NCBI RefSeq assembly: GCF_900128415.1
Contig: NZ_LT635772.1
Coordinates: 2,016,216-2,080,215 of the forward strand
Direction: 5' to 3'
Length of the DNA: 64,000 bases
Source of the DNA: Anaerococcus mediterraneensis
GTDB lineage: Bacteria; Bacillota; Clostridia; Tissierellales; Peptoniphilaceae
Each line of letters begins with the position of its first letter. Position 1 is the stretch's first letter. The notes under the pieces were generated by a model. That model was not told where the DNA came from, did not search any database, and was given only the letters and a program-made list of their open reading frames with translations. A program made the position numbers and the translations under genes. Shown here piece by piece: positions 44,376 through 54,735 of this stretch.

Positions 44376-45047
44376 CTAGACTTTTACCCAGGATTTTTTC
44401 CCATCTCCAATACTGACAAAACGTCTTTTTTTAGACTGGCTTCCTATATAAGAAACCCAGGAATATCCCTCATTTTGGTAGATCCTGTCATAATAGATCA
44501 CCCCACCCGGTGGATAAATAGCGACAATCCCTCCTGACAAAGAGGGGCTTGTTCTGACATTGACATAGGCCTGGACAATAGCCTTGCCCAATTTTTCTAC
44601 AAAGGCAAAACTCTTTTCCTGGCCCACCGGTCTAAAATACCTCTCCTTATTTGATCTTTTCCTATCCAAAAAACGCCAAGACTCATTTATAGTCACAGAC
44701 CCATAGGAAAAATTACAATGAATAATCCTTTTTTGATCCAAAAATATCCCCGTATGGCCATAGCCACCTGCCGAATATCCCTCGTATCCCCTTATAAAAA
44801 TATCTCCCCTCCTGACCTTGTCAAAAGAATAAATCTCCCTCAAAGCCTGGCCATTTAACCTAAAAAGTCCCTCAGTATTTGAAATACTCGTCCCCTTTGG
44901 CAAAAATCCCCCAGCTATCAGAGAATAATAAACAAAGGATGAACAATCATAAAAACTTGGGCCCAGCCTAGCTGGATAGGCCATAGAATAAGAAACCCTA
45001 TTTACCTTAGATATGGCAAAATCTATCATTTTTTCTACACTAGCCAT
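44376..45047 (-). CDS. Peptidoglycan hydrolase: Amidase_5-type NlpC/P60-like domain plus SH3 domain
   Basis: 223 residues. The N-terminal domain has FYDCSSFVYYSLIAGGF (catalytic Cys35), RRGDIFIRGYEG..AGGYGHTGIFLD (His98) and IIHCNFSYG (His110), the layout of phage-type Amidase_5 endolysins. The C-terminal part is an SH3b domain (AYVNVRTSPSLSGG...GYSWVSYIG) for wall binding. There is no signal peptide, so release needs a holin or cell lysis, as with phage lysins. It follows the YvrJ-like gene after 35 bases, including a strong hairpin just before its AAGGAGG ribosome site. The operon promoter is the GGGACA-type one shared with DUF1659-DUF2922. No phage structural genes are near. Confidence 0.85.
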   Translation of the reverse strand: MASVEKMIDFAISKVNRVSYSMAYPARLGPSFYDCSSFVYYSLIAGGFLPKGTSISNTEGLFRLNGQALREIYSFDKVRRGDIFIRGYEGYSAGGYGHTGIFLDQKRIIHCNFSYGSVTINESWRFLDRKRSNKERYFRPVGQEKSFAFVEKLGKAIVQAYVNVRTSPSLSGGIVAIYPPGGVIYYDRIYQNEGYSWVSYIGSQSKKRRFVSIGDGKKSWVKV

Positions 45048-45082: not shown

Positions 45083-45232
45083 TTATTTTTTCATCTCATC
45101 TAGGATTTGATCGAGCTTGCCATTGATCTGTACTATGAGTATCAGATTCATAACTATAGGAAAGCCCACCTGTGAAATCAGTTCTACAATATCCATATTT
45201 TCTCGGGCAATATTTTTGAGCCTATCTCTCAT
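45083..45232 (-). CDS. yvrJ: YvrJ-family small membrane protein (holin-like peptide)
   Basis: 49 residues from the ATG at 45232; an ATG at 45196 giving 37 residues (starting MDIVELIS) is also possible. The pattern ELISQVGFPIVMNLILIVQINGKLDQI matches the YvrJ family: a Gly-Phe-Pro turn, one transmembrane helix and a G-K-L-D/E amphipathic end. It is first in the operon with the lysin. YvrJ proteins resemble BhlA/UviB holin-like peptides in size and layout, so pore formation for lysin release is inferred. The ribosome site for this start is weak. Confidence 0.75.
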   Translation of the reverse strand: MRDRLKNIARENMDIVELISQVGFPIVMNLILIVQINGKLDQILDEMKK

Positions 45233-45290
45233 AAAGATCAAGGTTCAAAAACCAACCTGGCAAATTGCTTGGCCAGGCAAGAAAGCTGCC

Positions 45291-45298
45291 CCTCCTTT
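45291..45298 (-). promoter_or_regulatory. Strong ribosome site without an obvious long gene in the YvrJ leader
   Basis: AAAGGAGG lies about 60 bases upstream of yvrJ. The first start after it is a TTG opening an 11-codon reading frame that stops before yvrJ, and a CCTGGC/GCCAGG hairpin overlaps. It may be a leader peptide or the relic of a lost gene, since the same position serves the DUF1659 gene in the sister operon. Confidence 0.4.
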
Positions 45299-45309
45299 CT
45301 TTTTTTATT

Positions 45310-45350
45310 AGCCGGCTACTTATAAATAGAAAAATGATAATAATTGTCCC
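45310..45350 (-). promoter_or_regulatory. GGGACA-N15-CTATTTATA promoter of the yvrJ-lysin operon
   Basis: Minus-strand GGGACA (45345-45350), exactly 15 bases, CTATTTATA (45321-45329), then AGTAGCCGGCTAA. The same arrangement with identical spacing precedes the DUF1659 gene at 52.6 kb. It does not fit the usual TTGACA/TATAAT pattern, which points to the alternative sigma factor encoded next door. Confidence 0.7.
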
Positions 45351-45547
45351 AGCCAAAAGCCCTATATATTTGTTGCTAAAAGCCTTTTAATTTTTTATAC
45401 CAAAGACCCCCTCCAAAATTATCCGATCTTTTATACCTCAAAATGATTTTAAAATAAAATCCCAAAGCCAAAAAGCTTTTTAGCTGATTAAACTTTTTCT
45501 AAATCTTGTATTAATATAGACTTAGCCGGTAAGAATAGGAGGAAAAT

Positions 45548-46060
45548 ATGAAAATCAATTTAGAAAATTCAGACAGAATTATAAATGACTACATGCCCCT
45601 AATACTGGCTGTAGTAAGGAGGTTTCCTGCCTTTGAAAAAGAGGAATCCATAGACGAAGCCAAAATGGTCCTCATAGATACGATCATGGACTACAAGGAG
45701 GAAAAGGGGGCCTTTGGCGCTTACCTCAAACTCAGACTCAATTACTACTTTTTCGACAAGGCCAAAAAACCAACCGCCACATCCCTAGACAAAGAAAATG
45801 GGGAAGGCGACAGTCTAATATCAACCCTAGAAGCAGATATAGACATAGAAAAAGAGTTTTTCACCAAAGAAAAATACCAAGACCTCTACCAAAAAATAAG
45901 AAAACTAAAAAAGAGAGACCAAAAAATAATAATAATGAAATACTTCCAAAATAAAACTAACACAGAGATAGGAGATGTCCTAAAAATATCAGAAAAAACC
46001 GTCAGAAATAGGCACAGCCAAATAATAAAAGAACTAAAAACCATGTTTTTGGATTCTTGA
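45548..46060 (+). CDS. Small sigma-70 family RNA polymerase sigma factor
   Basis: 170 residues with region 2 (IINDYMPLILAVVRRFPAFEKEESIDEAKMVLIDTI.DYKEEKGAFGAYLKLRL) and region 4 (KIRKLKKRDQKIIIMKYFQNKTNTEIGDVLKISEKTVRNRHSQIIKELK, helix-turn-helix); region 3 is short. AGGAGG lies seven bases before the ATG. It is divergent from yvrJ and the lysin and the only such factor in the window, so it is the natural candidate to read the shared GGGACA promoter. Its own upstream DNA has no GGGACA box but does have TTTTTCTAAAT and an AGCCGGTAA block near the start, similar to the block after the shared promoters. An anti-sigma factor is not evident. Confidence 0.85.
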   Translation: MKINLENSDRIINDYMPLILAVVRRFPAFEKEESIDEAKMVLIDTIMDYKEEKGAFGAYLKLRLNYYFFDKAKKPTATSLDKENGEGDSLISTLEADIDIEKEFFTKEKYQDLYQKIRKLKKRDQKIIIMKYFQNKTNTEIGDVLKISEKTVRNRHSQIIKELKTMFLDS

Positions 46061-46159
46061 TTTTTTTATCCAAGATAAAGTAATAGATAATTGTTATTCC
46101 CTCTAAAAACCGATTTTCCCCTAGCAAAAAATCCCCACTCTTATCCTAAAATCCAACAT

Positions 46160-46290
46160 CATACCGACCACCCCGCCGTCATCCCGAACTCCACTCCCCC
46201 TTATCTCGAGCGGAGCGTAGCGGAGTCGAGAGATCTCTTGAACATAGGGAGTATCCCTATAACCCAATCCCTGCTGTCATCCCGAACGCA
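46160..46290. repeat. Interspersed repeat cluster
   Basis: GTCATCCCGAACTCC, CCCCTTATCTCGAGCGGAGCG..GTCGAGAGATCTCTTGAACATAGGG and GTCATCCCGAACGCATGTGAGGGATC pieces leading into element copy B. Confidence 0.65.
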
Positions 46291-47095
46291 TGTGAGGGAT
46301 CTTATGAACATAGGGAGTATCCCTATAACCTTATTTTTTTGTATTTATTATATTTCGATATTTTACTTACTTTGCGATATTTACATATCCCGCTGTTCTA
46401 AGGGGGAGGGCCAAGGACCCTTCCGCATGGGTCCTCATCGCCCTCCCCCTTATACCCCCTCTCCGTTACACCCCACAAGCGGCTCCTGCGGAGGGCAAAG
46501 TGAAAAGTTTGCTACGCAAACTCCACAATTTTGACTTGACTTAGGAACTAAGAGATCCAAATCTATAATTTGAAATCCAACCATCTAAAAATCGCAAACT
46601 CACCTGTCGGTTCAAACAGTGCGATTTTTCGACGATGGTCGTATTTCAAATTGTCACGATTTATTCAAGATAATCCAGCATCTGTTTATATATAAACAAA
46701 ATATCGGTATTTAAGTAATACTTGAATCCTAAATGTAAATGGTCAGCAGATTTATAATCACAAGTCCCGTTAAGAAAACTGATTTGTTTGAGCGTAGCGA
46801 GTTATCAGTTTTTAGGGGCTTGGGATTATAAATCACTTAAATAAAAATTGAGATTAAACAAAGAAATCCACCTACCATAAGAGGATTGCCGATAGGCAAT
46901 CTACATTTTTTGCACTCCGGCTAAGGAGCAGAGGGGGTGAGGGAAAAGGGGGTGTAAGGGGGAAAGCTGGAGGGGGCATCTGCCGCCCCCTTAGCTGTCC
47001 CCCTTGAACGGAGGGGTATGACAATACCCTAAAAAAATTTAATGATCAAGAAATAATAAATACAAAAAATAACTTTATAAAAAATCCCCTAATAT
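46288..47095. mobile_element. Modular hairpin-rich element, copy B
   Basis: Left end includes CATAGGGAGTATCCCTATAAC, TTATATTTCGATATTTTAC and ACATATCCCGCTGTTCTAAG (46385). Inverted right end CTTGAACGGAGGGGTATGAC (46998). Internal stems: GGACCC/GGGTCC, a large AATTTGAAATCC..arm with AATCGCA, a second AAAACTGAT/ATCAGTTTT arm framed by ATTTATAAT, and GATTGCC/GGCAATC. No gene in 46061-47232 otherwise. Confidence 0.7.
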
Positions 47096-47232
47096 TGATC
47101 AAATAATTCATATAAAACATTAAAATAATTCATCTTGGATGAAGCCCTCCCCTTACTTTGGATCTCAAATAAGGGTATAATATAAGTAGAAATGTTTTAA
47201 TTCAAGGCTTAGCCTAAAGAAAAGGAGAGTTA

Positions 47233-49215
47233 ATGTTTAATAATGATGATTTAAGGGCAGTCAATGCCATTCGTACACTTTCTGTAGCACAAATCGAAAG
47301 AGCAAATTCTGGCCATCCTGGCCTACCTATGGGTGTCAGCCCTATGGCTTATGTTCTTTTCAACAAGTTTTTGAAGGTCAATCCAGCAAATCCTAGCTAT
47401 TTTGATAGGGACAGGTTTGTACTTTCTGCAGGTCATGGTTCTGCTATGCTTTATTCACTCTTGCACCTAGCAGGTTTTGACCTATCTATAGATGATTTGA
47501 AAAATTTTAGGCAAATCGGATCCCTAACTCCTGGTCACCCAGAGCTAGGACACACCGCAGGTGTCGAGGTCACAACAGGTCCACTTGGCCAAGGTATAGC
47601 TCAAGCTGTTGGTATGGCTGTCGCAGAAAAACACCTTGCTGGCCTATACAACAAAGACGATATGAAAATTATCGACCACTACACCTACGCTATTTGTGGT
47701 GACGGAGACCTTATGGAGGGTATTTCCTACGAGTCAATGTCCCTAGCAGGCCACCTCAACCTTGACAAACTAATCGTCCTTTACGATTCTAATGATATCT
47801 GCCTAGACGGCAAGCTTTCTACATCTTTTTCTGAAAATGTCAAAGACAGGGTCCTAGCACAAAAATGGGCCTATGAAAGAGTAGAAGATGGCAATGACCT
47901 TGAGGCAATCTATAAGGCTATAGAAAAAGCCAAAACCAATGGCAAGCCAACCCTTATAGAAATCAAAACAATCATAGGATTCGGTTCTAAAAACCAAGGC
48001 ACAAACAAAGTACACGGTGCTCCAATAGGTGCAGATGACTTTAAAGATGCCAAAAAATCCTACGGTTGGGATGCAGAAGATTTTACAATCTCTGATGACA
48101 TCTACAAGACTTTTAGAGAAGGCATCTACGAAAATGGCCAAAAAGCCAACGAAAAATGGGACGAACTCCTAAAAGCCTATGCAGAAAAATATCCACAAGA
48201 CTATGAAGAACTAATCTCTGGTATAGAAAGAAAATTGCCAGAAAACTTCATCGACCAAGTCAAAAAATACACTAAAGATGACAAGGCCCTAGCAACTAGA
48301 GCATCTGGCGGCGAGATCATCCAAGACCTAGCCAAAGTCACCCGCAATTTCTGGGGCGGCTCAGCAGACCTATTCTCATCAAACAAAACTGATATAGTAG
48401 GCGAAAAAGCCTTTGGTCCAAACTCACCAGAAGGCAGAAACCTATGGTACGGAGTTAGGGAATTTGCTATGGCAGCCATAGCCAACGGTATAGTTGCCCA
48501 CGGAGGATCATTCCACCATGTGTCAACCTTCTTTGTCTTTGCTGACTACCTAAAAGCAGCCCTAAGACTATCTGCCCTATCAGGCATCCCAGTAACCTAC
48601 GCTATGACCCACGATTCTATAGCAGTTGGCGAAGACGGCCCAACCCACGAGCCAATTGAGCAACTAGCTATGCTTAGGTCAGTACCAAACACCATAGTCC
48701 TAAGACCAGCTGATGCCAACGAAACAAGACTAGCTTGGAAGATAGCCCTAGAGTCAAAAGACAAACCAGTAGTCATTGCCCTAACCAGACAAAACTTACC
48801 AAACCTAGAAGCAACCGAAAGCCTAGAAAACCTAGACAAAGGCGCCTACCTAGTAAAGAAAAACGAAAATCCAGACCTCACACTTATAGCAACAGGCTCA
48901 GAAGTAAGCCTAGCCCTAGAAGTAGCAGGAGAACTAGAAAAAGAAGGCAAAAAAGCAAACGTAGTATCCATGCCATCCATGGAGCTATTTAGAGCCCAAG
49001 ATGCCACCTACAAAGATCAAATCATAGACAAAGACAGCAAAAAAGTCTCAATAGAAATGGCATCAAGCTTCGGCTGGGCAGAATGGACAGGCAACGACGG
49101 CCTAAACATCTCCATAGACAGGTTCGGCATGTCAGGCCCTGGCGAAAAAGTAGCAGTAGAACTAGGATTTTCAAAAGAAGCAATAGTAAAAGAAATCAAC
49201 AAAAAGTTTTATTAA
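47233..49215 (+). CDS. tkt: Transketolase
   Basis: 660 residues, full length. It moves two-carbon units between sugar phosphates using thiamine diphosphate, linking pentose phosphates and glycolysis. Seen: SGHPGLPMG at the N-terminus, [12 protein letters not shown] (ThDP/Mg motif), [11 protein letters not shown], the second-domain [19 protein letters not shown] and the C-terminal FGWAEW region. GGAG precedes the ATG. It stands alone between two repeat elements. Confidence 0.96.
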
Positions 49216-49255
49216 AATCCTGGATAATAGAATAAAATAGTAGTTTCAAATGACC

Positions 49256-49530
49256 AAAAGAGAGATCTCTCGACTCCGCTCGAGATAAGGGTTTAAATGT
49301 CATTCCGAACAAATGTGAGGAATCTCATAAAGGAGTAAATCCCCAAAAGAGATCCATCAACTCCGCTGACGCTACTCCCCCTTATTTCGACTAAGGGCGA
49401 AGCCCGCATGGAGAAATCTCCTGGTGGGATCTCTCGACTCCGCTCGAGATAAGGGTAGTGAGGTCGAGATAAGGGATTGAAATGTCATCCCGAACGAATG
49501 TGAGGGATCCCATAAACAAAGCAAACTTCT
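49256..49530. repeat. Interspersed repeat cluster
   Basis: Two CTCGACTCCGCTCGAGATAAGGG pieces, two GTCAT(C/T)CCGAACGAATGTGAGG pieces and one TTATTTCGACTAAGGGCGAAGCCCGC piece. Confidence 0.65.
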
Positions 49531-49559
49531 AAAATCTATTGCAAAAATAAAATATTAAT

Positions 49560-49604
49560 CCCCAAGATAATCATTAATTCTAATGATGTCTTGGGGTTTT
49601 TTTT
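49560..49604 (+). terminator. Strong terminator hairpin
   Basis: CCCCAAGA..ATCATTA pairs with TAATGAT.TCTTGGGG (49560-49596), then TTTTTTTT. It lies about 345 bases after tkt and may end its transcript beyond the repeats. Confidence 0.75.
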
Positions 49605-49639
49605 ATAATTTTTTATCATAGAGAAATCTCCTAATTAGG

Positions 49640-50445
49640 GATCTTATGAACATAGGGAATATCCCTATAAACCTAATTTTTTGTATTTATTATATTTCGA
49701 TATTTTACAGTTTTTTTCGATATTAACATATCCCGCTGTTCAAGGGGGAGGGCCAAGGACCCTTCCACATGGGTCCTCATCGCTCTCCCCCTTACACCCC
49801 CTCTCCGTTACACCCCACAAGCGGCTCCTGCGGAGGGCAAAGTGAAAAGTTTGCTACGCAAACTCCACAATTTTGACCTGACTTAGGAACTAAGAGATCC
49901 AAATCTATAATTTGAAATCCAACCATCTAAAAATCGCAAACTCGCTACGCTCAGACAGTGCGATTTTCTTGACGATGGCTGTATTTCAAATTATCACGAT
50001 TTATAAAAGAGACTTCAGCATCTGTTTTTATATAAACAAAATCTCGGTAATCACATATTATTTGAATCCTAAATGTAAATGATCGTATAGATTTATAATC
50101 ACAAGACCCGTTAAGAAAACTGATTTGTTTGAGCGTAGCGAGTTATCAGTTTTTAGGGGCTTGGGATTATAAATCACATAAAGTAAAAACCAACTAAAAC
50201 AAAGAAATCCCCTTACTATAAGAGGATTGCCGTAGGCAATCTTCTAGTTTTGCACTCCGCCTAAGGAGCAGACGGGGGTGAAACGTAGAGGGGTATAAGG
50301 GGAGACCGATGAGGGGGCATCTGCCGCCCCCTTGGGTCTCCCCTTAGAACGAAGGGATATGTCAATATCGCAAAAGAATGTAAAATATCTAAATTTAATA
50401 AATAAAGAAAATAGGGTTGATAGGGAAACTCCCTATCCCCCATCT
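49640..50445. mobile_element. Modular hairpin-rich element, copy C
   Basis: Nearly the same as copy B over its length. Left flank CATAGGGAATATCCCTATAA then ACATATCCCGCTGTTCAAGG (49731); right flank TTAGAACGAAGGGATATGTC then ATAGGGAAACTCCCTAT. This is the clearest example of inverted ends over 100 bases long. Confidence 0.72.
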
Positions 50446-50515
50446 TTAATAGCTTTTTCCCCCAACATTGCATATAATAATATAAGAAAGAAAAATTACC
50501 CGGAGGCTTTTATAT

Positions 50516-51097
50516 ATGAAATTTTTAGTGCTTTTAGCAAATGGCAATGAGACTATCGAGGTTTTTACCTTTGTTGATTATATGAGACGAATTGGTGTTG
50601 ATGTCCACATGGTTTCTACCACTGGATCAGTTGACCTAGTGACTTCTCACTCTATAAAATACCAGGCGGACTTCCTTCTTGAGGATATAGACCCAAATAC
50701 CTATGACGGGCTCTACATACCAGGCGGTACAAAGGGAGCCGAGACTCTCCGTGATGATGAGAGGGCTATAGACATTGTCAAAGACTTTGACCAAAAAGAA
50801 AAAATCATCGCTGCTATCTGCGCAGGACCAATTGTCCTAGACAGGGCTGGGGTTTTGGTCAATAAAAAGGCCACATCACATCCAAGTATAAAGGATGACC
50901 TAAAAAACCTAGGCGAATACGTTGACGATCAGATAGTAGTCACAGATGGCCACATCACTACATCCAGGGGTGCTGCCCTTACAAATTATCTGGCCCTAAG
51001 GATTGCTCAAATTATAAAGGGTAATGAAGTAAGCGACGAACTAAAAATAGGCATCCAACAATCTAGCCTAGAAAAATTTTATGGAATAGAGTTTTAA
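50516..51097 (+). CDS. DJ-1/PfpI family protein
   Basis: 193 residues. The nucleophile elbow AAICAGP places Cys102 as the reactive cysteine; the upstream Glu (NGNETIEVF) is the partner acid of DJ-1 proteins. YIPGGTKGA is the oxyanion loop. Family members act as deglycases, chaperones or peptidases, so function is open. CCGGAGG precedes the start. The SDR gene follows after one base, so they are cotranscribed. Confidence 0.9.
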   Translation: MKFLVLLANGNETIEVFTFVDYMRRIGVDVHMVSTTGSVDLVTSHSIKYQADFLLEDIDPNTYDGLYIPGGTKGAETLRDDERAIDIVKDFDQKEKIIAAICAGPIVLDRAGVLVNKKATSHPSIKDDLKNLGEYVDDQIVVTDGHITTSRGAALTNYLALRIAQIIKGNEVSDELKIGIQQSSLEKFYGIEF

Positions 51098-51098
51098 G

Positions 51099-52076
51099 AT
51101 GAAAAATGTCAAAAAAATATTTATCCTAGGCGGAGCTACCCTCTTTGGCAGCCAAACCATCAAATACGCCCTAGATGAGGGCTATGAAATAGTAGCCTGC
51201 GACCTCATAAAAAGAGACGACCTAGAAGAAAACGAAAATTTATCCTACATCCTAGAGGATTTTTTCTCCCTAGGAGATGCGGCCGCCACAGACCTCATTG
51301 GCGATTGCGATAGTTTTATCTACGCAGGCGGTGTTGACGACCTGACCGTCCCAAGGAAACCTGCCGGCAAATTTTTCTACGAGAGAAATGTATTGCCTAC
51401 AGGTAGGGTCGCAAGGATATCCAAAAAAGCCGGAGTCAAAAATTTCCTCCTTCTAGGCGACTATAGGTCAGAAATCGCAGAGAAAAACTACGACCTAAGA
51501 AAACACAACTACCACAAAGAGCCCTATATAGATACCAGGCTCATGCAAGAATCCATCGCTATCTACGAGGGCGACGGCCTTATGAATGTATCTATCCTAA
51601 GGCCAGGAGTCATAGTCGGCAGGGACAATAGGTCAGCCCTCCTTGCCCATATAGCCCTAGCAGAAAAGCTAAAGAACATACCAGTCACACAAGGCATCAT
51701 CCCACTAATATCTGCCAAATCCCTAGCCAAGGCCGCAATCTTTGCCCTAGAGCTAGGCAGCCACAAAAAAACCTACGCCCTAAGAGATACAAACATATCC
51801 TACCATGACCTCTACACAAAAATCATAGAGACCCTGGATCTTTCTGATAAAAAACTCATAGACAAGTCTTTTGACGACCTAGAGCCTGCCTACCTAGAGG
51901 ATGAAAAAATCTCCAAAAAAAGAGGCCTAGAACACGGGATCAGCCAAACAAATATACTCAGGTCTGCATCCTACGACCTATCCATAGACTCAGACTTCGA
52001 CATAGCTAGTCCGGATATAGATGAGGACTTAGCAGACATGATCACCTACCTAGACAAAATCCTAAAAGGAAAATAA
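51099..52076 (+). CDS. NAD-dependent epimerase/dehydratase-like SDR protein
   Basis: 325 residues. The N-terminal Rossmann motif is FILGGATLFGSQ, followed by ACDL at the end of strand two (adenosine-binding Asp). The usual Tyr-x-x-x-Lys is not clear; the region around HKEPYIDTRLMQES may replace it, so it may be a non-enzymatic or atypical SDR. ILRPGVIVGRDN is typical of the extended family. Paired with the DJ-1-like gene; function unknown. Confidence 0.8.
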   Translation: MKNVKKIFILGGATLFGSQTIKYALDEGYEIVACDLIKRDDLEENENLSYILEDFFSLGDAAATDLIGDCDSFIYAGGVDDLTVPRKPAGKFFYERNVLPTGRVARISKKAGVKNFLLLGDYRSEIAEKNYDLRKHNYHKEPYIDTRLMQESIAIYEGDGLMNVSILRPGVIVGRDNRSALLAHIALAEKLKNIPVTQGIIPLISAKSLAKAAIFALELGSHKKTYALRDTNISYHDLYTKIIETLDLSDKKLIDKSFDDLEPAYLEDEKISKKRGLEHGISQTNILRSASYDLSIDSDFDIASPDIDEDLADMITYLDKILKGK

Positions 52077-52081
52077 ACAAA

Positions 52082-52118
52082 AAAAACACAAGCAAAGCCC
52101 AAGCTCGCTTGTGTTTTT
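52082..52118. terminator. Bidirectional terminator between the SDR and DUF2922 genes
   Basis: A 12-bp stem (AAAAACACAAGC with GCTTGTGTTTTT), 13-base loop, T-rich on both sides. It serves two convergent operons. Confidence 0.8.
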
Positions 52119-52121
52119 CTC

Positions 52122-52355
52122 TTAATTATTTATAGTATAAGGCGATTTTTCTATCACCTCTAGTTCGGCATTTGATTTTGTAGTCAAAGCCCCCTTCTTG
52201 GTCAAAAGTACATTCGATTTTATAATACTATCCATAGCAGTATTGATCTCATCATCTGTGTAGGACGCCTTTGGCATATCCACAGATATAGTCCTTTGGG
52301 CACTGTCAGCATCCTTAAAATATAATTTTAACTTAGTATTTACAATTTTACTCAT
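52122..52355 (-). CDS. DUF2922 family protein
   Basis: 77 residues: NTKLKLYFKDADSAQRTISVDMPKASYTDDEINTAMDSIIKSNVLLTKKGALTTKSNAELEVIEKSPYTI follows the DUF2922 pattern (T-L-x-L-x-F...G.....i..P...l....v...M..ii..nif....G.....k.a.iv). No function known. GGGAGG precedes the ATG. It follows DUF1659 in one operon; these two families commonly sit together in Firmicutes. The operon uses the GGGACA-type promoter shared with the yvrJ-lysin operon. Confidence 0.78.
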   Translation of the reverse strand: MSKIVNTKLKLYFKDADSAQRTISVDMPKASYTDDEINTAMDSIIKSNVLLTKKGALTTKSNAELEVIEKSPYTINN

Positions 52356-52377
52356 CTAAAATCCTCCCTTTCTACTC

Positions 52378-52593
52378 TTAGGCTACATTTGTTGTAATAA
52401 GTTCTTCATTAGTCTTATAAATCTTATAAGAAATCATATTGCCACTTGTTTGATAAAGCTTGAGATAAGCTGCCGCAAAAGCCTCGAAATTCACCTTAGT
52501 CGCTGCCTCATTGACATTGGCAAAAGTCTTTGTATAAGACTTCTTTTCTCCACCCTCAGCTTTTTCCAGCTCATAAACTAATTTAATTTTCAT
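52378..52593 (-). CDS. DUF1659 family protein
   Basis: About 71 residues starting MKIKLVYELEKAEGGEKKSY. The ATG at 52593 is chosen over the one six bases upstream because AAGGAGA would be too close to the earlier codon. The pattern KSYTKTFANVNEAATKVNFEAFAAAYLKLYQTS fits DUF1659. Short, no signal or membrane segment. First gene of the operon with DUF2922, behind the GGGACA promoter. Function unknown. Confidence 0.78.
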   Translation of the reverse strand: MKIKLVYELEKAEGGEKKSYTKTFANVNEAATKVNFEAFAAAYLKLYQTSGNMISYKIYKTNEELITTNVA

Positions 52594-52620
52594 AAACATT
52601 CTCCTTTTTTCTTTTTCTTA

Positions 52621-52661
52621 GGCCGCCTATATATAAATAGAAAAAATCCCCAAAATGTCCC
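52621..52661 (-). promoter_or_regulatory. GGGACA-N15-CTATTTATA promoter of the DUF1659-DUF2922 operon
   Basis: Minus-strand GGGACA (52656-52661), exactly 15 bases, CTATTTATA (52632-52640), then TATAGGCGGCCTAA and an A-rich stretch into AAAGGAG. It matches the yvrJ promoter at 45.3 kb in boxes, spacing and the following GSCGGC block; the 15-base spacers themselves differ. Confidence 0.7.
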
Positions 52662-52943: not shown

Positions 52944-53501
52944 CTACCAGCCCATATTATCCTCTATAGAAAAATCATCGATAGGCTCTTCAACCTTGGG
53001 CTCTATAGGCGTCTCCCTATCCTCCCTAAGCATGGCAGTCAAAAACTTGATCGAGTGAAACTCATCTCGCCTAAGCTTGACAATCTGCTCATACATCAAA
53101 GCCTTGGCCAAAATCCTATTAGAAATCAAACTATCCTCCCTATTTAGGGTAGAAATAGTCTCCCCACTACTAAGGATAATCTGACTCCCCTCGATCCTAT
53201 CTACAAATCCGACATTCACAAAACCCCTAGTCTCCCTATCATAAGTAGACTTTCTAGCATTGAAAGCAAAAAACACCTGGCTAGCATCTATCACATAAGG
53301 TAGGTTCCTCAAAACCTGATAATCCCTCTTTATATTGTTATCAACCTTCTTTTTAGTCTTGCCCTTGCTATCATATAAAATCTTTAAAAAATGAGTAGGC
53401 GCCTTCCTATCCAAATAAACCCTATCCTGCCTATAAACCCTAGAACAAATACCAATACCCTTCACAGGTTCAGGCAAAATAGCAATAATAACTCCTGTCA
53501 T
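52944..53501 (-). CDS. ComK-like transcription regulator
   Basis: 185 residues from the ATG at 53501, chosen because AAAGGAG precedes it; the longer open frame upstream is made of repeat DNA. Landmarks shared with Bacillus ComK (192 residues): GVIIAILPE at the N-terminus, LPYVIDASQVFFAFNARKS (ComK has a V-D-P-S-x-Q-I-F-L-F stretch), RGFVNVGFV and SQIILSSGETISTL (F-S-N-G-K-T-x-x-L in ComK). If right, it is a DNA-binding activator of competence genes. It lies just upstream of the DUF1659-DUF2922 operon on the same strand, but with its own region and an ordinary promoter (TTGAAT near 53560). Similarity is judged by eye. Confidence 0.62.
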   Translation of the reverse strand: MTGVIIAILPEPVKGIGICSRVYRQDRVYLDRKAPTHFLKILYDSKGKTKKKVDNNIKRDYQVLRNLPYVIDASQVFFAFNARKSTYDRETRGFVNVGFVDRIEGSQIILSSGETISTLNREDSLISNRILAKALMYEQIVKLRRDEFHSIKFLTAMLREDRETPIEPKVEEPIDDFSIEDNMGW

Positions 53502-53820: not shown

Positions 53821-54735
53821 TCCCTATAACCCTATTTCTTGTATTTACTATATCTCGATATTTTACATTCTTTTGTGATATTTACATATCCCGCTGTTCA
53901 AGGGGGAGGGCCAAGGACCCTTCCGCATGGGTCCTCATCGCCCTCCCCCTTACACCCCCTCTCCGTTACACCCCACAAGCGGCTCCTGCGGAGGGCATAC
54001 TGAAAAGTTTGCTACGCAAACTATTCTATTTTGACCTGACTTAGGCTCAAAGAGATCCAAATCTATAATTTGAAATCCAACCATCTAAAAATCGCAAACT
54101 CGCTACGCTCAGACAATGCGATTTTCTTGACGATGGCTGTATTTCAAATTATCACGATTTATACAAGAGAATCCAGAATCTATTTTTATATATACAAATA
54201 TGTCATTCACATTCTATTTGAATCCTAAATGTAAATGGTCAGCAGATTTATAATCACAAGACCCGTTAAGAAAACTGATTTGTTTGAGCCGATAGGCGAG
54301 TTATCAGTTTTTAGGGGCTTGGGATTATAAATCACCCAAAGTAAATACCAACTAAAACAAAGAAATCCTCCTACGATAAGAGGATTGCCGATAGGCAATC
54401 TACTGATCCCGCCCTCCGCTTAAGGAGCCGCCTGGAGGGGGTAGCGTAAGGGGGTTTTAGGGGGAGCCGGTGGGGGAACATGCGGAACGTTCCCCTGGGC
54501 TCCCCCTGGAACGAAGGGTTATGTTAGTATCTAAAAATATTTATAAAAAGAGTAATCAACTAAAAGTTTAAAATAATGGAGTCATAGGGAACACCCTATT
54601 TTTAGATTGCCCCCTTGGGTCTCCCCTTAGTACGGCGGGATATGTTAATAGCCAAAGAAATATAAAATATCGAAAAATAGTGAATTAAAAATCAAAATAT
54701 ATATGGATTATAGGTAAAGTCCCTTTGTTCATAAG
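53800..54735. mobile_element. Modular hairpin-rich element, copy D (chimeric type)
   Basis: The left half matches copies B and C (ACATATCCCGCTGTTCAAGG at 53885 and the AATTTGAAATCC arm). The right half matches copy A (GCCGCCTGGAGGGGGTAGCG, GGAACATGCGGAACGTTCC, CTGGAACGAAGGGTTATG near 54508), followed by the extra end module CTTAGTACGGCGGGATATG (54628). Confidence 0.7.

Follow-up and report, generated by a model that had tools for sequence, protein, structure and literature searches.

The window analysed here, a stretch of 64,000 nucleotides from Anaerococcus mediterraneensis (contig NZ_LT635772.1, positions 2,016,216 to 2,080,215), contains two operons, yvrJ-lysin and DUF1659-DUF2922, that share one promoter sequence, and a small sigma factor gene whose product very likely, judging from sequence comparison, reads both promoters. 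According to the explanation that we consider best, and probable overall, this extracytoplasmic function (ECF)-like sigma factor switches on a programme of a holin-like protein, an endolysin and the DUF1659 and DUF2922 proteins, which in relatives receives input from the SOS response and from a ComK-like regulator. The shared promoter, the coupled drift of the two operons, the linkage of the genes, their co-occurrence and the LexA-like boxes of the relatives are computed observations.

Both promoters lie on the minus strand. In front of yvrJ-lysin (45321..45350), a -35-like GGGACA (45345-45350) is followed after 15 bp by the -10-like CTATTTATA (45321-45329); in front of DUF1659-DUF2922 (52632..52661), the same boxes occupy 52656-52661 and 52632-52640. 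The original prediction, made from the letters of the window, had placed GGGACA-N15-CTATTTATA at these two sites, and both occurrences are exact, with equal 15-bp spacing and unlike spacers. They are the only two perfect matches in the whole genome (one contig, 2,080,215 bases), where about 0.01 would be expected by a composition estimate that assumes 35% GC. One further site has one mismatch and six have two, and each of these seven falls within an open frame, 326 to 705 codons long, on either strand. With up to two mismatches the real pattern gives nine genomic sites and a reversed-pattern control 19; therefore, none but the perfect pair rises above the background. The window alone contains seven sites with up to three mismatches, compared with a shuffle mean of 2.66. 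Hence the motif is specific, and the host genome shows no sign of a large regulon; a scatter of the motif before housekeeping genes, which the prediction had named as the result that would speak against it, was not seen. Because the motif was picked after it had been seen, its recurrence in other genomes is the stronger test.

The literal motif, at 15-bp spacing and with up to three mismatches, occurs within 250 bp upstream of 36 out of 51 counterpart operons in Anaerococcus (the window genome, G000, is excluded from this count), compared with 21 of 2040 shuffles and one of 51 antisense sequences. For DUF1659, 28 of 29 operons have a site within four mismatches of the literal sequence of the window; for yvrJ, ten of 22 have one within three mismatches in the nearest 250 bp, and several others carry it farther upstream. 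Relatives that keep both operons and the sigma gene thus keep the motif as well, a pattern on which the first reading had depended. Across 49 promoters, almost no variation is seen in GGGA and most of CTAT-TATA; positions 5-7 are variable, and the spacer holds little information apart from its T-rich ends. Outside the genus, the -10 box with at most one mismatch is found in 18 of 29 DUF1659 upstream regions from the family and 12 of 30 from the class (shuffles: 7.8% and 9.3%), a signal that is suggestive only, because the box is nearly palindromic and the antisense strand also gives 13 and 7. By eye, the -35 of DUF1659 upstream regions in other genera differs from that in Anaerococcus.

The two promoters have drifted together in their boxes. 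Across 20 genomes with both promoters, the within-genome distance between -35 boxes is 0.45 of seven places, compared with 1.63 in permuted pairs (standard deviation 0.19; 0 of 10000 permutations); the corresponding values are 1.15 versus 1.45 for the -10 boxes (143/10000) and 6.90 versus 7.43 for the spacers (506/10000). When close relatives were merged, which reduced the 20 genomes to 13, the distances were 0.46 versus 1.55 (0/10000), 1.00 versus 1.34 (327/10000) and 6.77 versus 6.99 (3030/10000), respectively. These tests took in farther (>250 bp) or weaker yvrJ promoters of G001, G009, G011, G012, G021 and G023; the yvrJ promoters of G015, G024 and G026, with five mismatches, were accepted by eye on the basis of position and -10, and only G015 of these is in the set of 13. 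The permutations confirm the conserved boxes around a diverged spacer, in which the original prediction had seen a sign of selection for recognition. A recent copying of the promoter was ruled out, since after the merging spacers of one genome show no greater likeness than spacers of different genomes. Matching -35 boxes next to unmatched spacers are the pattern that a dedicated factor predicts, and the simplest cause of the coupled -35 drift is therefore a common reader of this box.

The candidate reader is encoded at 45548..46060 on the plus strand, divergent from yvrJ. The sigma-70-type gene that had been reported there is real: its product of 170 amino acids, consisting of regions 2 and 4 only, matches Pfam Sigma70_r4_2 (2.5e-10) and, over residues 9-165, NCBIfam sigma70-ECF (1.2e-18). 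With Pfam region 2 alone the protein scores below the cut-off. The profile of its family aligns to SigW over positions 10-168 (E 9.1e-9), and from this alignment together with the NCBIfam match it follows that both sigma regions are present. The gene occurs in 30 out of 31 Anaerococcus genomes; in the family, its profile matches 118 of 130 genomes at 1e-8, a number that overstates the spread because many of the weaker matches cover region 4 only. Its neighbours in the window, the divergent yvrJ and a transketolase gene 1.2 kb downstream, do not include an anti-sigma gene. In the 250 bp upstream of the sigma gene in 30 genus genomes, the degenerate motif does not occur at 15-bp spacing with up to two mismatches; at spacing 14 or 16, two of the 30 show a site with two mismatches. 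Among 177 alignment columns of the sigma factor, residue 153, located in region 4 at the place of the recognition helix, best separates the bases at position 5 of the -35 box of DUF1659 promoters: arginine or threonine goes with C (14 genomes), and alanine, phenylalanine or serine with A (16 genomes), with no exception in 30 promoters (for G030, a variant with a spacer of 14 was used).

The search for further targets used a degenerate form of the motif, which has 33 matches over the 31 genus genomes, compared with 16 for the reversed-pattern control. Seventeen of the 33 stand at yvrJ, DUF1659 or HTH_36 operons (one of them, in G008, lies on the yvrJ strand at a distance of about 1 kb upstream of this gene and is counted as probable only), and the other 16 equal the control count. 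A large regulon was therefore rejected, the near-matches in the host genome likewise giving no excess. The HTH_36 gene, of phage replication-initiator type, has the motif before three of seven homologues (G001, G005 and G009); at 1e-5, the host genome has no homologue. As far as the promoter can be read, the regulon is tiny, comprising yvrJ-endolysin, DUF1659-DUF2922 and, in three genomes, the phage-type replication-initiator gene. A perfect GGGAAA-N15-CTATATATA is found 111 bp before a gene for S-adenosylmethionine hydroxide adenosyltransferase in G008 (L059) and G023 (L054), and this gene is a possible additional member. Two other sites were seen in G008: one, inside an apparent terminator hairpin, lies 458 bp upstream of a gene for deoxynucleoside kinase and has a similar counterpart in G023; the other, a site of the degenerate motif, precedes a peptidase S51 gene.

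YvrJ (45083..45196, minus strand; 37 amino acids) is a holin-like small protein that matches Pfam YvrJ (2.9e-7, in a longer frame at 45083-45241) and PHROG 4898, holin (4.4e-6); a Gly-Phe-Pro is invariant over 31 aligned rows. The adjoining lysin gene (44376..45047, minus strand) encodes an endolysin-type peptidoglycan hydrolase with Amidase_5 and SH3_5 domains (Pfam 4.6e-36 and 4.3e-8; PHROG 998, endolysin, 6.7e-28), which has matches at or below 2.9e-57 in 23 of 31 genus genomes and in 27 of 31 at 1e-10. The DUF1659 protein (52378..52593, minus strand; Pfam 6e-6 in frame 52378-52599) and the DUF2922 protein (52122..52355, minus strand; Pfam 1.2e-16) share a predicted beta-beta-alpha-beta topology, with model confidences (predicted local distance difference test, pLDDT) of 83.4 and 89.0, respectively; neither found a match at E <=0.001 among solved structures. 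Within the genus, 30 of 31 genomes have DUF2922; of 391 genomes drawn from the class, 93 contain it, 90 of them with a score above the cut-off. It also matches a PHROG of unassigned function (9.7e-8). Of 14 control genomes, that of Thermotoga maritima contains DUF2922, and the other 13 do not.

These genes make up a module in Peptoniphilaceae and other Clostridia. At locus L141 of A. marasmi, DUF2922, DUF1659, the lysin, yvrJ, the sigma gene and a ComK-like gene all lie within 3.3 kb. In the window, a transketolase, a DJ-1/PfpI protein and an epimerase-family protein are encoded between the two operons, and the arrangement looks like an L141-like cluster that was opened by the transketolase, other genes and repeats. 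Sigma, DUF2922 and the ComK-like gene are all missing from a single genome, G017, which is 86% complete; since the seemingly close G014 has them in one small region, the absence of a contig might account for this. Among 30 class-level loci, fetched as the best-scoring ones for DUF2922, DUF1659 is found in 30, YvrJ in 14, sigma in 11 (two by way of a short region-4 piece), the ComK-like gene in nine, and sigma or ComK in 17.

The ComK homologue of the window is very divergent (52944..53501, minus strand), and the shared promoter motif was not found before its gene. Its relationship was recognized through the family profile: three out of 19 members match Pfam ComK at E <=1, the best at 3.4e-7, and the window member has no Pfam match. 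Six distant relatives from Clostridia were compared with the ComK cut-off of 22.3 bits, of which L290 (28.7) and L288 (24.9) exceed it, three remain below and one has no match. Of the 31 genus genomes, 30 have a ComK-like gene, and so do 54 of 130 genomes of the family; in both class-level loci tested the gene that follows it encodes a RecD2 helicase. The original proposal of a dedicated regulon is supported by the uniqueness of the motif, its recurrence and the drift of the boxes; it had missed the ComK homologue, the link to SOS and the wider module.

Outside Anaerococcus, the module carries signs of SOS control. A perfect GAAC-N4-GTTC precedes the sigma gene at 16 of 40 loci from other genera, compared with 32 of 2000 random windows, and most of these boxes are close to GAACATATGTTC, which we take to be the SOS box of Gram-positive bacteria. 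Seven ComK-like genes have a LexA-like box at -40 to -50, between promoter-like elements; six of these boxes are the same as those on the sigma side, because the two genes are divergent. The remaining ten sigma-side boxes belong to nine genomes without a ComK-like match and one (G128) with such a match. SOS regulation seems to act on ComK where it is present and on sigma where ComK is absent. Upstream of the Anaerococcus sigma genes another element, ATTAAACTTTTT, is found (45487..45498, plus strand, in the window), which is exact before 19 of 30 and has one mismatch before six more. In three genomes, a search for it gave 17 matches, including six exact 12-mers. Three of these stand before sigma, and the other three, one of which directly precedes the following gene, fall inside reading frames; some of the 1-mismatch matches are intergenic. 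Since its exact non-sigma copies are all within reading frames, ATTAAACTTTTT was rejected as a box common to other genes. About 40-90 bp before Anaerococcus ComK-like genes, at the place of the LexA box of the relatives, a GTACACTTAAAGTC-like element was observed (L331, L333, L338, L347, L349, L352 and L353, and also L030-L037); a loose pattern recovers it at seven of 18 genus loci tested, and other cases were recognized by eye.

According to the proposed mechanism, RNA polymerase with the ECF-like sigma factor (45548-46060) would start at GGGACA-N15-CTATTTATA of yvrJ-endolysin and DUF1659-DUF2922, and the sigma factor would act as the dedicated switch of a long-established chromosomal module that is linked, as its gene neighbourhoods suggest, to a ComK-like regulator. 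In relatives, DNA damage may turn the module on via the LexA-like boxes on the sigma or the ComK-like gene. YvrJ, as a holin-like membrane protein, would give the endolysin access to the wall, and cells, probably a subset, would open or remodel their envelope, with the small DUF1659 and DUF2922 proteins, alike in predicted topology, presumably acting in the same programme. The output could well be a controlled permeabilisation, and we stop just short of calling this probable. The opening might serve DNA release, DNA uptake, vesicles or the killing of neighbours. That SOS or ComK drives the module in Anaerococcus itself seems doubtful. For Clostridia, a conserved and so far undescribed cascade can be sketched tentatively: damage would free LexA sites on the ComK-like or sigma gene, sigma would then activate YvrJ, DUF1659, DUF2922 and, in Anaerococcus, the endolysin, and a few cells would open the envelope and release or take up DNA, the LexA step being replaced in Anaerococcus by another input (ATTAAACTTTTT before sigma and the GTACACTTAAAGTC-like element before part of the ComK-like genes).

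Several results weigh against this explanation. The association of residue 153 with the -35 box needs only one to two changes on the tree and is therefore not independent evidence; in addition, G022 breaks the pattern, having alanine 153 and GGGACA before yvrJ, though GGGAAA before DUF1659. As a proof of the pairing of sigma and promoter, residue 153 is weakened by the tree; it fits this sigma factor as reader without proving it. Within the genus, sigma and the operons are often non-adjacent, and 19 of the 30 class-level DUF2922 loci have no sigma gene within about 1.5 kb. In seven genomes that possess sigma and DUF1659-DUF2922, a close orthologue of the lysin is missing; since these genomes retain the DUF1659-DUF2922 genes with a promoter variant, the lytic activity of this enzyme is not the core function, and the small proteins are the constant part. 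On the input side, a LexA-like box precedes sigma in none of 30 Anaerococcus genomes, and no perfect box precedes the Anaerococcus ComK-like genes that were inspected, that of the window having one mismatch.

Three other explanations were weighed. A competence sigma factor of the ComX/SigH type would drive DNA uptake genes, with the lysin as a fratricide enzyme. Such a role would agree with the ComK homologue in the module, its presence in nine of the 30 class-level loci and the RecD2 gene beside it in the two tested, and the genus has the genes for uptake (comEC in 30 of 31 genomes, a T2SSE/ComGA-type ATPase in 31 of 31). However, the perfect degenerate motif is absent from 30 comEC and 30 T2SSE loci, whose flanks of about 1.5 kb may be too short to include the first part of a long comG operon. 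Within 400 bp upstream, these 60 loci contain a single weak site, 136 bp before one T2SSE gene, with two mismatches and a 14-bp spacer, and no com operon was among the inspected matches of the strict genus scan. Com operons were not found as targets in these loci, and we consider a competence sigma improbable.

The locus could also represent a domesticated lysis cassette, from a prophage or a bacteriocin system, that has a late sigma factor of its own and is related to the UviA/TcdR arrangement. The holin and endolysin profile matches, the phage-type replication-initiator gene under the same promoter (three of seven homologues) and, in the excerpted text of PMC4885068, the position of TcdR next to a putative holin and an endolysin fragment all point this way. 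Against them stands the near-universal presence of sigma in the genus (30 of 31 genomes), and none of 81 candidate stretches of viral contigs encodes a relative. Nine phage records give weak sigma matches only, at 24-36% identity, one of them covering at least 80% of the query; DUF2922 is found in no phage or plasmid record at E 0.01, despite its PHROG match of 9.7e-8. Moreover, no phage structural family is among the Pfam matches of 14 proteins from the locus and its surroundings, and sigma is not preceded by the motif at 15-bp spacing. This origin is accordingly quite improbable in our view. Finally, housekeeping RNA polymerase with an activator at GGGACA might read the shared sequence, with the sigma factor as a bystander: the -10 box CTATATATA is near to an A/T-rich housekeeping -10, and the tie between sigma and promoter rests on sequence. 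The fixed 15-bp spacing, the box-specific coupled drift, the co-occurrence and linkage of the sigma gene across the family and, with the caveat of the tree, the position of the best-associated sigma column in region 4 make this reading very improbable.

Among known systems, SigO-RsoA (YvrI-YvrHa) of Bacillus subtilis is comparable in that an alternative sigma factor has a very small regulon, which includes yvrJ according to the excerpted parts of PMC8103513. If the likeness held for the targets, yvrJ would be transcribed by the present factor; many genomes carry the motif ahead of this gene. SigO-RsoA has its regions on two separate proteins and drives oxdC, whereas the present factor is a single 170-amino-acid protein with both regions, and its likely targets are the endolysin, DUF1659 and DUF2922, the last having no match in the B. 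subtilis control genome. In competent B. subtilis cells, rsoA is 8.7-fold and sigO 3.9-fold up (PMC7317962, in part). The sigma factors of group V (UviA, TcdR, BotR) resemble it in being encoded by small genes next to those that they control, with a putative holin and part of an endolysin in the vicinity of TcdR, but are described in the same portion of PMC4885068 as autoregulated and carried on acquired elements, unlike a gene that occurs in 30 of 31 genus genomes with no motif at 15-bp spacing before it. Carriage on acquired elements did not emerge here, as the viral-contig scan yielded no sigma and phage records weak matches only; plasmid records were searched for DUF2922, not for sigma. 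With SigW of the ECF factors (group IV), the protein shares regions 2 and 4 only and the profile alignment over 10-168. The GG at the start of the -35 box presumably also resembles ECF promoters; different are the lack of an adjoining anti-sigma gene and the -10, CTAT[ATC]TATA. To our knowledge, the targets are unlike those of any known ECF group. With ComK-dependent competence the module has in common a ComK homologue, beside RecD2 in two Clostridia loci tested, but this homologue is very divergent and LexA-boxed in seven loci outside Anaerococcus, and no com operon examined has a convincing motif.

Already known, from the excerpts of these papers, are yvrJ under an alternative sigma factor (PMC8103513), the rise of sigO and rsoA in competence (PMC7317962) and a holin with an endolysin fragment near TcdR (PMC4885068). 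A description of this sigma factor, its promoter or the DUF1659-DUF2922-YvrJ-ComK module was not found in the open-licence PubMed Central literature. DUF1659, DUF2922 and YvrJ are widespread families without an assigned function, which the present analysis would tie to one sigma factor, a ComK homologue and, in relatives, SOS; a readable promoter turns these three orphan families into one testable programme. The genus also offers a natural series of pairs of sigma factor and -35 box for the study of drift in promoter specificity. Anaerococcus is a human-associated bacterium, and in this little-studied switch the opening of the envelope may be coupled to DNA damage or DNA uptake.

The leaders of the two operons have features of their own. 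A GSCGGC block, which the original prediction had counted as part of the promoter, is present at both places, but relatives have other palindromes, RNA hairpins or nothing similar in the same position. As a promoter element it was ruled out; it is a variable leader palindrome that forms a hairpin in part of the genus. Directly after the -10 of the yvrJ promoter lies the palindrome TAGCCGGCTA (45309..45318, minus strand), which has no stable fold (0.0 kcal/mol); directly after that of the DUF1659 promoter lies the near-palindrome TAGGCGGCCTA (52619..52629, minus strand), a weak hairpin of -1.6 kcal/mol that reaches -5.8 in relatives. When 22 distinct DUF1659 leaders were folded, the mean z was -2.09, with seven at or below -3 kcal/mol, and for 11 yvrJ leaders it was -0.16, with one at or below this value; the underlying shuffles preserved single-base composition only. 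The yvrJ-lysin leader (45197-45320) is about 125 nt long and contains a strong ribosome-site-like AAAGGAGG distant from the yvrJ start; in several other species, this region contains a small reading frame.

Two short palindromes were also seen between the sigma gene's own -10-like element and its ribosome site (L010-L039). The first is GTCGAC in 25 of 30 cases and otherwise CTCGAG, CCGG or others; the second is GCGCGC, GAGCTC, GCGATCGC, GCTAGC or others. By eye, the letters change and the symmetry is kept. Finally, three copies of an intergenic repeat, each about 0.56 kb long, are dispersed in the window (46328-46891, 49670-50232 and 53828-54390) and fill gaps between genes of the split module; its blocks of 300, 120 and 144 nt have identities to the reference of 83-93%, 60-84% and 66-91%, respectively.

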